Source of the DNA: Shewanella sp. MTB7
GTDB lineage: Bacteria; Pseudomonadota; Gammaproteobacteria; Enterobacterales; Shewanellaceae
DNA: 64,000 bases
Direction: 5' to 3'
Assembly (NCBI RefSeq): GCF_027571385.1
Contig: NZ_CP085636.1
Coordinates: 744,001 to 808,000 of the forward strand
Shown piece by piece: positions 52,060-58,431 of this stretch. Under the pieces are notes generated by a model that saw only the letters and a program-made list of their open reading frames with translations, was not told the origin of the DNA and searched no databases. The position numbers and the translations under genes were made by a program. How positions within the stretch are numbered: position 1 is the first letter of the stretch; every line of letters starts with the position of its first letter.

Positions 52060-52923
52060 ATGGCTAAATATTTAGCTCTTCTTTGTTTCTTTTATCTGCT
52101 GTTTATTGGCTCTGTTGTATCCGCTAATCCTTGGGGGCGAGTGAGTGAACCTTTGAGCGGAGAATCTAGGGCAATAGGAAGTTATGCAAATGGCTGTTTA
52201 TCTGGCGGTGTCGCCTTGGCGAATGTGGGAGAAGGGTTTCAGGTTATGCGTACCTCACGCAATCGATATTATGGTCACGCTGATCTGGTTAGTTTTATTG
52301 AGGAGTATTCACTAAAAACCAAACAAACGGGTTTAGGCGATCTTCTTATCGGCGATATGTCGATGCCCAGAGGCGGTAACTTTACGTCGGGTCACAGGAG
52401 TCACCAAAGTGGTTTAGATGTCGATATCTGGTTGCGTCAGGTCGATAAAGCGCTATCGACTCAAGAGCTTGAAGTACCAAAAATGCAGGATGTCGTCAAT
52501 CGAAAAGCCTTTAAGGTCAACGCAAATTGGTCAGATGCTCATCAGAGCATGATACATCTCGCAGCTCAAGATTCACGTGTGGCCCGCATCTTTGTTAATC
52601 CAGTGATAAAGCAACAACTTTGTGATAATCGTGGCCAGAATTCTGACTGGTTACAGAAGGTACGCCCTTGGTGGGGGCACTCATCTCATATGCATATCAG
52701 ACTTAAATGTCCCGAGGGTAATGAACTGTGTGAGGAGCAAAAACAGCCACCCAAGGGGAATGGCTGTGATGAGCTAAGTTGGTGGAGGGAGCAGATGACT
52801 GCACCGAAAAAAGTGAAAGACACTAGCCCTACGCCTAAGGCAAAACCAACACCTAAAAAAATAAAGCCTAAGCAATGTATTCCTCTACTCGGTTCAGGTC
52901 TGGTTGATAAGCTAGATTTATAA
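52060..52923 (+). CDS. mepA: Penicillin-insensitive murein endopeptidase MepA
   Basis: LAS-type zinc endopeptidase that cuts D-Ala-mDAP cross-links in peptidoglycan. 287 residues with a signal peptide (to about VVSA). Metal-site segments are GHRSHQSGLDVDIW and WGHSSHMHIRL, both as in the family. The C-terminus has a Lys/Pro/Thr-rich tail (KAKPTPKKIKPKQCIP) longer than usual. The stop codon lies in the first unit of a 13-bp tandem repeat. ATG at 52060. It is convergent with the desulfurase fusion. Confidence 0.93.
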   Translation: MAKYLALLCFFYLLFIGSVVSANPWGRVSEPLSGESRAIGSYANGCLSGGVALANVGEGFQVMRTSRNRYYGHADLVSFIEEYSLKTKQTGLGDLLIGDMSMPRGGNFTSGHRSHQSGLDVDIWLRQVDKALSTQELEVPKMQDVVNRKAFKVNANWSDAHQSMIHLAAQDSRVARIFVNPVIKQQLCDNRGQNSDWLQKVRPWWGHSSHMHIRLKCPEGNELCEEQKQPPKGNGCDELSWWREQMTAPKKVKDTSPTPKAKPTPKKIKPKQCIPLLGSGLVDKLDL

Positions 52924-52975
52924 GCTAGATTTATAAGCTAGATTTATAAGCTAGATTTATAAGCTAGATTTATAA
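52911..52975. repeat. Five copies of a 13-bp tandem repeat at the end of mepA
   Basis: Unit GCTAGATTTATAA, five perfect copies. The first supplies the last codons and TAA stop of mepA; the others fill the space to the convergent desulfurase gene, whose stop is 12 bp further on. Copies beyond the first do not change MepA. Confidence 0.92.
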
Positions 52976-52986
52976 GTTAGGTATTT

Positions 52987-55302
52987 TTAACTGTTGAGCG
53001 CATAGCCACCTTTGAGGTGAGCCACGTTTGCAAATCCAAGGCGGCGCATAGCTTGTGCTGCGACCATAGAACGACTACCACTGCGACAAACAAGTACCCA
53101 CTCGGATTCTTTATCGCTCTGATGTTCTTGAATAAACTGTACCAAGCGTGTCATCGGGATATTAATACTTGTATTCAGCACATGTTCGGTATCACTTGGC
53201 TCGTTGCTGGTATCTAGCTTATGTTGCAGGGTATATTCATGGGGTTCGCGAATATCGAGAATTGTCACATGATTGGCAGTTGATAGTCGTAGTTTGAGAT
53301 CTTCGCTGTTGTACTCCTTAATTTGGGCCTTATCACCGCTAGTATTATAGGCACCACATAGGATCTCGCCACCCACTTCATCCTGTAGATTAGCGTCTAA
53401 ATCAGCTTTTCTAGTTGTGAATTGTGACTCACTGATTGCACCTGAGAGTACTATTTTTAACAACGGGTTACGTGTCACTTCGACAGACAAGCTGGTGGTA
53501 AATTCATTATTGTAGTCGTGACTGGCACATAACAGAGTTTGTTGACCTATGAGGCGATTTAGTTGTTTTAGGCTGTGGTACATCAGAATAGCGCTGCTTG
53601 AAGCGAAATTAGTTCTTCCCAGCGTGCCCATTAGAACCGTATCCCCACAGAAAGCATAGCGTGTATGGGTAGTGAGTTTGTGTGGGTCGGATGTCAGTAA
53701 TAAGCTGATACTGTCATCGGTATGTCCTGGAGTGGGGACCTTTATTAAGGTTAGTTCTCCGAGATTCAGCGCGTGATATGTTTCATCAGCGAGCGGCAAA
53801 CTATCTGTATTAATCGGCCAGCCTAGCGCATCAGTTTTCTGGCTGGCCAGGTATTTTTGTGCTAATGCAACACGCCCTGACACATGATCTGCATGGCCGT
53901 GGGTATCTAAAATGGCAATAGGGGTGAGCTGTTGGCATTGAAGTAAAGTATCTATACGCTTCTCAAGTTCAGGAAGGGGATCGATGACCAAGGCTTGCTT
54001 ACTCTTCAGATCGGCATAGATCCAAGTGCAGCTAGAACCGGATCTTAATTGAACCAGTCCATCTAACGGGGCTCTATCTTGTAGAGTTTGAGAGTCATCT
54101 AACATCAGGCAACTATTGGATAGTGCTTTTGCTGCTGAGCGGATCCTCAAGCAAGCTATGTCAATTTCAGTTTGGGTCATCGCAGGTCCAAAGGAGAGTC
54201 GAATAGCGGATTCACTCTGCCATGCGGGTAGACCCATGGCATCTAGTACAAAGCTTCGTGTCACCTTTGAACTACAGGCGGAACCTGAGCTGACACGGAT
54301 ATTGGCTGCATCGAACAGATCCATTAGCTCTTTGCTGCTAAAACCGGGAACGGCGAAGTTGAGTGTGGTAGGGACACTATTTTTAAACTGGTGATTAAAT
54401 ACGATATCGGGAAAAGCTTGAGACAGGCTATGGCTCAATTGACGCCGGTAGTCAGTGAGCGTGTTCAGATCATAAAAACTGCTGTTATCTTGGTCTAGCA
54501 GCATCTCAAATATTACATTAAGGGCTGCTAAACCTGGGAGGTTTTCTGTACCTGAACGCAGCCCGCTTTCTTGTCCACCGCCTGCAATAAAGGGGGTAAA
54601 TGGCGCACTATCACGTATATAGATAAAACCAATTCCCTTAGGAGCATAGAGTTTATGGCCGCTAAATGGCGCATAATCTATGCTGGTTGTTGCTAAATTC
54701 ATTGGTCGCTTACCCAGAGCTTGTACGCAGTCAACTAACCAAAAGACCTCTTTGTTCTGCTCGCGTATACAGTGCTCAAGCTGTTGTAGATCTTGATACA
54801 CACCGGTTTCATTATTGACTGCCATGGTGCATATCATTAAGGCGTTATTCACTTCATTTTTTATAAATTCTAGATCCAATTCACCAGTATGATCGACTGG
54901 GATGGCTATGATCTCGGCATGGATCCCTAAAATTTCATTCCAATGCGCCAGAGAGTTGGGCACGGCTTTATGTTCAGTCGCTCCGTATAAAAGACTGTAT
55001 TTTTTGCCCGTTTGAAGCTGTGTTTTCGCTTTAATTAGGCCTGATATTATGCCGGTTTGAATTCCCTCAGTAGCGCCACTGGTGAAGATGAGCTTGCCAT
55101 TACCTGTGCCTAACAGTGTCTTAGCCCGTTGACGGGTTTGCTCCATTAAGTGTTTGGCTTTCAGGCCGGTAATATGACTACTACTAGGGTTACCGAAGAG
55201 GTCTTGCATGGCATTCATAGCCGCTTGGGCAGCTTGTGGAAGTACAGGTGTTGTTGCGTTTGCATCGAGATATATCTGGCTTAAATTAGTTTTTTGGCTC
55301 AT
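52987..55302 (-). CDS. Cysteine desulfurase - MBL persulfide dioxygenase-like - rhodanese fusion
   Basis: 771 residues in three sulfur-handling modules. (1) NifS/IscS-type desulfurase, about 1-395: SGHK with PLP Lys217, SSGSACSS with catalytic Cys343. (2) A metallo-beta-lactamase module like ETHE1/persulfide dioxygenase, about 415-640: THGHADH (His468, His470, Asp472, His473), PGHTDDS (His527), CGDTV (Asp554), ASHDY (His595). (3) A rhodanese domain, about 665-771: CRSGSRS with Cys739. All key residues appear intact. It should release sulfur from cysteine as persulfide and may pass or oxidise it within one chain; sulfite or thiosulfate as product is inference. Single gene with an 11-bp dyad upstream. 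Confidence 0.88.
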   Translation of the reverse strand: MSQKTNLSQIYLDANATTPVLPQAAQAAMNAMQDLFGNPSSSHITGLKAKHLMEQTRQRAKTLLGTGNGKLIFTSGATEGIQTGIISGLIKAKTQLQTGKKYSLLYGATEHKAVPNSLAHWNEILGIHAEIIAIPVDHTGELDLEFIKNEVNNALMICTMAVNNETGVYQDLQQLEHCIREQNKEVFWLVDCVQALGKRPMNLATTSIDYAPFSGHKLYAPKGIGFIYIRDSAPFTPFIAGGGQESGLRSGTENLPGLAALNVIFEMLLDQDNSSFYDLNTLTDYRRQLSHSLSQAFPDIVFNHQFKNSVPTTLNFAVPGFSSKELMDLFDAANIRVSSGSACSSKVTRSFVLDAMGLPAWQSESAIRLSFGPAMTQTEIDIACLRIRSAAKALSNSCLMLDDSQTLQDRAPLDGLVQLRSGSSCTWIYADLKSKQALVIDPLPELEKRIDTLLQCQQLTPIAILDTHGHADHVSGRVALAQKYLASQKTDALGWPINTDSLPLADETYHALNLGELTLIKVPTPGHTDDSISLLLTSDPHKLTTHTRYAFCGDTVLMGTLGRTNFASSSAILMYHSLKQLNRLIGQQTLLCASHDYNNEFTTSLSVEVTRNPLLKIVLSGAISESQFTTRKADLDANLQDEVGGEILCGAYNTSGDKAQIKEYNSEDLKLRLSTANHVTILDIREPHEYTLQHKLDTSNEPSDTEHVLNTSINIPMTRLVQFIQEHQSDKESEWVLVCRSGSRSMVAAQAMRRLGFANVAHLKGGYALNS

Positions 55303-55371: not shown

Positions 55372-55498
55372 TAGCAGCTTTGCAGGAGTGAACAAGGTCA
55401 CATTTACGTGGTAACGTGTCAGTCAGAGATTGAGCAGGAGAAAAGGCAGATTGAAGAAGTTGCATAGCCAAGAACCATGTCGGTGTTTCCCTTTTTGA

Positions 55499-57888: not shown

Positions 57889-58431
57889 CTACAGCGTTTC
57901 TTTAATCTCCTCGATCAGTTTGTGCCACTGAGGATATTCGGCAAAACTGGTTGTCAGATTGCCCCATGGGCGCAATGTGGACTCTTGTATTACTTCGCTA
58001 TCTATTGCGCCTGATTTGAGTTGGTATAGGTAATAGAAGGCTGAGGCACGATAGTTTGCTGCGCAATGAATAAGGATATCTTTATCTGAATTGGCATCCA
58101 TGACCTTAAAAAATTGCTCTACATCTTCTCGTGTTGGCTTGTTCCAGTCGACGCCAATGTGAACATACTCCATGTTCGCACCTGTGACTAAACTGGCTTC
58201 ATCTTGATGACCACTGGCGTTGCCAGCCGGAATTAGATTGATGACCAGATCGACACCAGCTTGTTGTAGCTTAGAGAACTCAGCTTTACTCGGTAAACCT
58301 GAAGTGATGATGTTGTCGTTATTAAACTCAATGGCTTTAATTCCTTCCAGTGTATCGGGGGAGATAGCAGCTTGAGTTGTGAGCGAAAATATACTTGTGA
58401 GTAATGCGATCATTAATACTGATTTATTCAT
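57889..58431 (-). CDS. Exported phosphatase-like protein (DSP/BLH-type)
   Basis: 180 residues with a signal peptide (about 1-21). The fold reads as the small dual-specificity-type phosphatase group (PF04273/DUF442-like): SGLPSKAEFSKLQQAGVDLVINL at the start and DILIHCAANYRASAFYYL with nucleophile-type Cys123 and Arg128. The Cys and Arg are four residues apart, as in the BLH-type group, not five as in standard PTPs. A periplasmic phosphatase is inferred. ATG at 58431. No obvious operon partner. Confidence 0.72.
   Translation of the reverse strand: MNKSVLMIALLTSIFSLTTQAAISPDTLEGIKAIEFNNDNIITSGLPSKAEFSKLQQAGVDLVINLIPAGNASGHQDEASLVTGANMEYVHIGVDWNKPTREDVEQFFKVMDANSDKDILIHCAANYRASAFYYLYQLKSGAIDSEVIQESTLRPWGNLTTSFAEYPQWHKLIEEIKETL

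Follow-up and report, generated by a model that had tools for sequence, protein, structure and literature searches.

Three modules in one reading frame

A gene of Shewanella sp. MTB7 joins a cysteine desulfurase (CD), an MBL module resembling persulfide dioxygenases (PDOs), and a rhodanese (Rhd), which raises the question of what a single protein would do with all three. The gene was analyzed within its window, the whole 64,000-nucleotide stretch of DNA under study, and its parts were delimited as follows.

52987..55302, minus strand: whole gene of the CD-MBL(PDO-like)-rhodanese fusion (intact 771-aa open reading frame, Pfam, residue conservation)
54118..55278, minus strand: CD module, residues about 9 to 395 (PF00266; nearest PDB chain 1ecx)
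53323..54075, minus strand: MBL/persulfide-dioxygenase-like module, residues about 410 to 660 (PF00753; PDB matches BpPRF, 4ysb, and ETHE1; comparison with 93 PDO-rhodanese proteins)
52999..53310, minus strand: Rhd module, residues about 665 to 768 (PF00581; C739 invariant)

Translation of the minus strand yields 771 aa from an ATG start with no internal stop. Three Pfam domains exceed their curated cut-offs in the protein, PF00266 at residues 10 to 381 (E 7e-56), PF00753 at 423 to 581 (E 8e-9), and PF00581 at 667 to 767 (E 2e-12; 47.7 bits against a cut-off of 22.2), and the domain identities are firm. An earlier sequence-only reading had placed three modules in a single frame, leaving the strand unstated, and this is borne out. 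Active-site conservation was assessed in an alignment of the query with the best 120 of 5593 homologs with E ≤ 1e-3 (8000 candidates scored). Each key residue named in that reading (K217, C343, H468, H470, D472, H473, H527, D554, H595, and C739) is identical in 121/121 sequences. The marker residues of the CD module, PLP Lys217, His111, Gln194, and Cys343, are invariant in the same set; His111 and Gln194 presumably have the same roles as in IscS. In the MBL module, the markers are H468, H470, D472, H473, H527, D554, H595, R563, Y597, and C649. The rhodanese active-site loop is C739-R-S-G-S-R744, with C739, R740, G742, and R744 present in all 121 sequences (CRxGxR). The earlier statement that all key residues are present holds as far as the residues are intact, but such residues alone cannot tell a dioxygenase from other MBL enzymes. 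Six noncatalytic cysteines (C158, C384, C398, C456, C592, and C649) are also invariant in 121/121 sequences.

Distribution of the fusion

The fusion is carried by many marine bacteria. Within Shewanella, where its occurrence is patchy, 60/129 genomes match at E ≤ 1e-100, and 57 of the 60 align in one piece over nearly the whole query; two others (G087 and G091) align over residues 1 to 540 only at this threshold and one (G063) in two pieces, with open frames of 799 to 818 aa. Because of these matches, the gene is not a product of misjoined neighbors. The possibility that a sequencing error fused two or three adjacent genes is negligible and is already refuted by the same full-length frame in many genomes of several genera; the prospect, raised earlier, that the frame might split into two genes did not materialize.

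Beyond the genus, matches were found in 32/295 genomes and 10/99 genera of a sample of the order (E ≤ 1e-80), in 1/369 genomes of a sample of the class (the window's own only), and in 10/398 genomes of a sample of the phylum (E ≤ 1e-70, own genome included). Record titles of the matches include Shewanella, Parashewanella, Pseudoalteromonas, Colwellia, Paraglaciecola, Psychrobium, and Ferrimonas. Two outlying source labels, as given, are Marinobacter for one locus (L082) and a Flavobacteriales MAG for one protein. Many source names read just "cysteine desulfurase" or "aminotransferase class V," as the sequence-only reading had guessed when it suggested annotation as a desulfurase only; some JGI names, on the other hand, list more than one domain. 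Spread by plasmids was considered and rejected, as the matches at E ≤ 1e-60 were limited to 3 of 72,556 plasmid records, all of them Pseudoalteromonas replicons of 0.8 to 1.3 Mb. A query with the Massilia relative described below returned the same three replicons.

A desulfurase apart from the housekeeping enzymes

The closest structures to the CD module by sequence are cysteine desulfurases, with PDB chain 1ecx nearest (E 5e-58), and the PF00266 profile together with the PLP lysine K217 and the loop cysteine C343 in 121/121 sequences identifies it as a class V cysteine desulfurase. It shares the class V PLP fold (by sequence), Lys217, and Cys343 with IscS/NifS-type desulfurases such as 1ecx, but it scores far below the cut-offs of the NifS, IscS, SufS, CsdA, and DndA models and has two extra modules attached. 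All NCBIfam scores of the fusion protein fell below cut-off among the matches listed (25 of 29 models), and none of these named equivalogs was assigned; the best was TIGR03402, with 264.6 bits against 530.75. An IscS (L002) and a SufS/CsdA-type protein (L004), so labeled from a reading of their sequences, are encoded elsewhere in the same genome, and the fusion is therefore an extra desulfurase. A housekeeping IscS or SufS identity was rejected on the model scores and these separate genomic copies.

An MBL module of the persulfide dioxygenase kind

In PDB searches, the MBL module matched BpPRF (5ve3, 74 bits), 4ysb (72 bits), and, further down, ETHE1 (4chl, 60 bits), with the best GloB at 40 bits. 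The earlier assignment to the persulfide dioxygenase kind is upheld, with BpPRF and 4ysb ahead of the ETHE1 that it had named. Two other identities were tried and rejected: glyoxalase II (GloB; TIGR03413, 70.8 bits against a cut-off of 200.8) and the Blh bifunctional sulfurtransferase/dioxygenase (NF040641, 30 bits against 625). The glyoxalase II model, though well below its cut-off, is the top NCBIfam MBL model for the window protein and outranks the Blh dioxygenase model.

The MBL-Rhd half was also searched alone, and the best 120 of 390 matches with E ≤ 1e-3 were retained. Pieces of its own family were followed by two partial, more distant members (P0260 and P0261; 36 to 39% identity, metal ligands intact) and then by PDO-rhodanese proteins at 25 to 32% identity and 93 to 96% query coverage, several of the nearest of which, among the matches listed, carry the source name "sulfur dioxygenase." Outside its own family, the MBL-Rhd half thus appears nearest to PDO-rhodanese proteins among the matches listed. 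For a residue comparison, 93 PDO-rhodanese proteins (P0269 to P0361) were set beside 31 of the 121 fusions; positions were also followed through the 94 MBL-active rows of a wider set of 134 rows, made up of 131 loci, the window, and the partial P0260 and P0261, from which five near-copies or repeats had been left out beforehand.

The metal-site residues, R563, Y597, N612, and C739 agree with 93/93 PDO-rhodanese proteins. The 2-His-1-Asp metal site and second shell that mark type I PDOs are present at all seven positions in 121/121 fusions and 93/93 PDO-rhodanese proteins; alanine variants of AcPDO D61 and H62 are described as inactive in the available text of PMC6060420. According to the same text, the equivalents of AcPDO R139 and Y173 are GSH-site residues conserved in all PDO types, and this pair is kept in the active rows, as R563 in 93/94 (the exception being L011) and Y597 in 94/94. 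The type I GSH-binding arginine, AcPDO R190 in the portion of PMC6060420 consulted, has no counterpart: its position holds R in 92/93 PDO-rhodanese proteins and L614 in 31/31 fusions, and 0/94 active rows have Arg at position 614. The stretch matching the type I GSH-binding Lys (AcPDO K212) is gapped in the 31 fusions aligned with the 93 PDO-rhodanese proteins. Where 93/93 PDO-rhodanese proteins have an Asp that partners the active-site Arg, 31/31 fusions have N565 (over the 94 active rows, Asn in 88 and Asp in the other 6). C592 of the fusions (C in 88 and L in 6 active rows) stands where PDO-rhodanese proteins have mostly Tyr or Trp, and C649, equivalent to AcPDO C224 and ETHE1 C247, occurs in 94/94 active rows and in only 71/93 PDO-rhodanese proteins. 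A new finding of this comparison is that the intact MBL module keeps its metal-site residues but lacks the GSH-binding arginine of 92/93 PDO-rhodanese proteins.

Set against characterized enzymes, the MBL module shares with ETHE1 and type I PDOs such as AcPDO the HxHxDH, PGHT, GD, GRT, and HDY motifs and a conserved cysteine, but those enzymes stand alone, and their GSH-binding Arg (AcPDO R190) corresponds to Leu614. With BpPRF of Burkholderia (PDB 5ve3 to 5ve5), the fusion shares the MBL-Rhd order, the metal site, the R563, Y597, and C649 equivalents, and the rhodanese CR-G-R loop; BpPRF has no desulfurase, and its NPRL arginine, the Asp at the N565 position, and the PKQI stretch are changed or gapped in the fusion. 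From these differences, we infer that the dioxygenase of the fusion would not be made for glutathione persulfide in the usual manner, and the missing type I GSH-binding arginine could point to a different substrate or to low activity.

It is clearly unlikely that the MBL module is a hydrolase or metal-binding scaffold rather than a dioxygenase. Asn565 stands at the position of AcPDO D141 in the 88 active rows noted above, and the D141 alanine variant is reported to have low activity in the available text of PMC6060420; the GSH arginine is gone, other members tolerate MBL decay, and glyoxalase II (70.8 bits/200.8) ranks above the Blh dioxygenase (30/625) among NCBIfam MBL models. Against this, the module retains its seven metal-site residues together with R563, Y597, and C649, PDB matches to PDOs reach 72 to 74 bits against 40 for GloB, and the nearest proteins outside the family, among the matches listed, are PDO-rhodanese fusions across both modules.

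A role in sulfur assimilation like that of BpPRF, in which Rhd would make GSSH from thiosulfate, MBL would oxidize GSSH, and CD would serve as a second inlet, is very unlikely. The MBL-Rhd half is collinear with PDO-rhodanese proteins, and BpPRF reportedly acts in assimilation, going by the title of Motl 2017. However, none of the 94 rows with intact ligands has the type I GSH-binding arginine, some relatives have DecR-like neighbors (see below), and the genome has another PDO-rhodanese-like protein (L003; G000:C1:4449855-4450778), labeled from its sequence, that keeps the usual NPRL motif. The rhodanese loop of L003 is unusual, reading CEHGKIS.

A sister clade with a decayed or absent MBL module

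The last match in the phylum sample (genome G1015, locus L096) encodes P0122, listed as Massilia forsythiae. A search with P0122 returned 119 further relatives of 640 to 726 aa (best 120 of 3297 with E ≤ 1e-3), and these 120 sequences were aligned beside 61 of the 121 Alteromonadales-type sequences. Each of the 120 retains the PLP lysine and the catalytic cysteines of both CD and Rhd, whereas H527, for example, is present in 0/120. In the Massilia-containing betaproteobacterial family (f213), 59/195 genomes match; a sample of the surrounding order gave 2/260, both from f213.

Of the 134 rows, 94 carry the full set of seven MBL residues, 36 retain an MBL stretch in which some of the seven are lost, and 4 (L133 to L136) have practically no MBL module. 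As five active rows duplicate others, the 94 comprise 89 distinct ones; the other 40 rows are all distinct. The CD-Rhd core is constant, with the Lys/Cys/Cys trio complete in 131/134 rows and the remaining three (P0260, P0261, and L074) cut short at one end. The four MBL-less rows are CD-Rhd proteins, three of them 507 to 514 aa long counted from the first motif. None of the 38 f213 loci has an intact MBL site, yet the CD and Rhd active sites are kept, so that oxidation is not essential to the family. Loss also occurs outside f213: two loci of the window's own order, L092 and L094, retain the three presumed iron ligands but have lost D472 and H473, the equivalents of AcPDO D61 and H62. What is new here is a sister clade of related soil-type bacteria in which the first and last modules keep their active sites and the middle, putatively oxidizing module appears to have decayed, losing its ligands, or disappeared.

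A tree of the CD module (57 loci, the window, and two IscS) requires at least six changes among the active, decayed, and absent states, and an earlier CD tree of 71 loci and the window likewise gave six. Active L141 and L093 fall inside or beside the f213 group, the MBL-less rows fall within a clade of decayed ones, and f213 rows as one clade were not rejected in an AU test (p 0.48). This pattern fits an ancestor with an active MBL module that decayed repeatedly and was then lost, read with a root and direction of change that are unreliable because the IscS outgroup sits on an absurdly long branch in each tree.

Selection was estimated as dN/dS (Nei-Gojobori, own script) for 15 pairs, some sharing members and some with dS near saturation. 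The six active pairs gave 0.02 to 0.11 for CD, 0.03 to 0.16 for Rhd, and 0.035 to 0.15 for MBL (five computed, one saturated); the nine decayed pairs gave 0.06 to 0.27 for CD and 0.22 to 0.83 for the MBL remnant, with MBL above CD in 8/9. Since MBL also exceeds CD in 5/5 computed active pairs, the contrast between active and decayed pairs is one of size, not order. In proteins with an intact MBL, constraint acts on all three modules; in the others, the MBL remnant evolves under relaxed constraint.

The CD-Rhd core might instead supply persulfide to acceptor proteins or small thiols, with the MBL module burning the excess to sulfite as a safety valve, a reading that we place on the unlikely side. 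Every row that covers the CD and Rhd cysteines has retained them while the MBL decays, and the accessible text of PMC8931425 reports that the Pseudorhodoferax CD-Rhd persulfidates the model acceptor roGFP2. However, the 48 loci compared share no neighbor gene across genera, the DecR-like gene next to some relatives suggests cysteine breakdown, and the MBL module of the active clade evolves under purifying selection.

Gene neighborhood and regulation

Neighborhoods were compared at 48 loci (the window and 47 of an 80-locus set), using script-called genes of at least 90 aa. No neighbor gene was conserved across genera in these 48 loci, and a same-strand gene within 100 bp was found downstream in 1/48, upstream in 0/48, and not at all in 47/48.

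In the Massilia-containing family, a DecR/CyuR-like gene of the Lrp family lies divergently upstream of the fusion gene in 33/38 loci: 29 of the 30 loci of the family search, the exception (L112) starting at a contig end, and L133 to L136, but not L137 to L140. The Massilia-type regulator is 46 to 52% identical to Escherichia coli DecR versus 34 to 39% to E. coli Lrp. In the 80-locus set, part of which is cut by contig ends, a DecR-like divergent neighbor occurs at two Psychrobium-type loci (L064 and L066; 44 to 46% identity to DecR, 34 to 37% to Lrp), and the Lrp-type gene about 6 kb from the fusion gene at L035 is nearer to Lrp than to DecR. L088 to L095 and L141 to L148, where flanks are short, have no such neighbor. 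The gene therefore faces a DecR/CyuR-like regulator in these 33 f213 and two Psychrobium-type loci, which is new, and not in the window, where no DecR-like gene lies beside the fusion gene. The Massilia regulator found four Lrp-family genes in the window's genome, none a clear DecR ortholog; L127 is 38% identical to both DecR and Lrp, and L128 is 81% identical to Lrp.

DecR/CyuR of E. coli is a cysteine-activated activator of cysteine breakdown, according to the available portions of PMC9040844 and PMC11408624. Because a similar regulator stands beside some relatives, a role of the fusion in cysteine breakdown is suggested, as with the DecR/CyuR-controlled cysteine desulfidases CyuA and CdsH; these are different enzymes, however, and CyuA yields pyruvate, ammonium, and sulfide, not alanine and sulfite (PMC9040844, in the part consulted). 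The detoxification of sulfide proposed in the sequence-only reading found no direct evidence, the regulator beside relatives pointing to cysteine instead. Scans for the CyuR motif described in the accessible text of PMC11408624, covering the upstream regions of the window gene, of eight Shewanella relatives, and of the two Psychrobium-type loci, gave best scores no higher than those of shuffled sequences.

A different candidate site lies upstream of the fusion gene.

55387..55402, minus strand: CRP/FNR-family-like palindrome TGTGACCTTGTTCACT, candidate site

The palindrome TGAYCnnGnTCA occurs in 24/31 Shewanella upstream regions, including that of the window, about 97 to 142 bases upstream. 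Its core, TGATCnnGATCA, with at most one mismatch, is found in 26/31 Shewanella sequences versus 0.5 expected and in 2 of the 49 other loci versus 0.7, where the expectations come from single-base shuffles and the 31 Shewanella sequences are related. The palindrome resembles the consensus patterns of CRP/FNR sites, and the site is a predicted one. A promoter scan found 4 sites versus 6.1 in shuffles, and a terminator scan found 4 versus 2.3 (sd 1.8), each inside the gene and on the plus strand.

A proposed route from cysteine to sulfite

The chances are evenly balanced, in our estimate, that the fusion is a stand-alone, probably O2-dependent cysteine-disposal enzyme that converts L-cysteine to alanine and sulfite and passes persulfide along inside the protein. 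The CD module would remove sulfur from L-cysteine to give L-alanine and a persulfide on Cys343, which would move to Cys739 of the rhodanese module. From there, directly or via a small thiol, the persulfide would reach the putative iron site of the MBL module and be oxidized to sulfite, for a predicted net reaction of L-cysteine + O2 + H2O to L-alanine + sulfite. A CD-to-Rhd transfer has been proposed for the bifunctional CD-Rhd of Pseudorhodoferax in the available text of PMC8931425. Identical active sites of the three modules in 121/121 sequences and low dN/dS on every module in the six active pairs argue for cysteine disposal; the missing DecR-like neighbor and CyuR motif at the window gene, the absence of a cross-genus operon partner, the lack of an intact MBL site in all 38 f213 loci, and the missing GSH-binding arginine argue against it, and a cysteine-catabolic role in Shewanella is a proposal.

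A narrower form of this reading is possible, and on balance rather doubtful: the dioxygenase module may take its persulfide from its own polypeptide, from the Rhd or CD cysteine, and not from glutathione persulfide, making the protein a self-contained cysteine-to-sulfite machine. If so, the lost GSH-binding arginine would mark the switch to a persulfide of the same polypeptide, and the decayed betaproteobacterial forms would be a natural experiment in which the oxidation step is separable from the CD-Rhd core.

Cysteine breakdown by CyuA releases sulfide and fails in air, as described in the part of PMC9040844 consulted. Aerobic conversion of cysteine to alanine and sulfite by one enzyme, with no release of free sulfide, would be a distinct route and, if real, would be present in many marine Alteromonadales, so far labeled mostly as cysteine desulfurase. 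With intact, decayed, and MBL-less relatives available, the order in which sulfur is transferred could be tested directly by a comparison of natural proteins.

Relation to known fusions

Both two-domain arrangements have precedents. PDO-rhodanese fusions are known (BpPRF and CstB, in the accessible parts of the sources), as are CD-Rhd fusions, of which one from Pseudorhodoferax is bifunctional (Caubriere et al. 2022, PMC8931425, in its available text); the words lactamase and dioxygenase are absent from the main text of that paper. The Pseudorhodoferax protein (WP_056898193.1) has a desulfurase followed by a rhodanese with both catalytic cysteines, as in the fusion, and the spacing of its Cys334 and Cys466 (132 residues) is close to the 141 to 143 residues of MBL-less L133, L135, and L136. 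It lacks an MBL module, and its resemblance to the fusion family, as far as the consulted text of PMC8931425 goes, is one of architecture and not of compared sequence. By the two-module definition in that text, L133 to L136 are CD-Rhd proteins and the window protein, with a third module in between, is not.

The fusion therefore combines two known fusion kinds. The earlier description of three fused sulfur enzymes stands in that three sulfur-handling modules have intact active sites; they are not three unrelated enzymes, given the PDO-Rhd and CD-Rhd relatives. The CD-PDO-Rhd order was not described in the literature found by a search that most subscription journals lay beyond, which agrees with the earlier remark that no characterized example of this exact order was known. 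The architecture is real and conserved and, as far as that search shows, uncharacterized.

Other features of the locus

A DUF386/YhcH gene lies near the fusion gene in 21/48 loci, all from Shewanella. At 57889-58431 (minus strand), the window encodes a small Blh phosphatase-like protein with a leader-like N terminus, for which PF04273 scored below its cut-off and PF22785 and PF22741 slightly above theirs. Homologs of this PF04273-like gene occur in 12/48 loci, all from Shewanella, directly upstream of the fusion in seven, three genes upstream in two (including the window), and six or seven genes downstream in three. At L067 (Parashewanella curva), the same-strand gene just upstream of the fusion resembles cysteine synthase, from a reading of its start. 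A 13-bp tandem repeat of 5.7 copies at 52907-52980 of the window covers the stop codon of an M74 endopeptidase gene and the gap before the end of the fusion gene.
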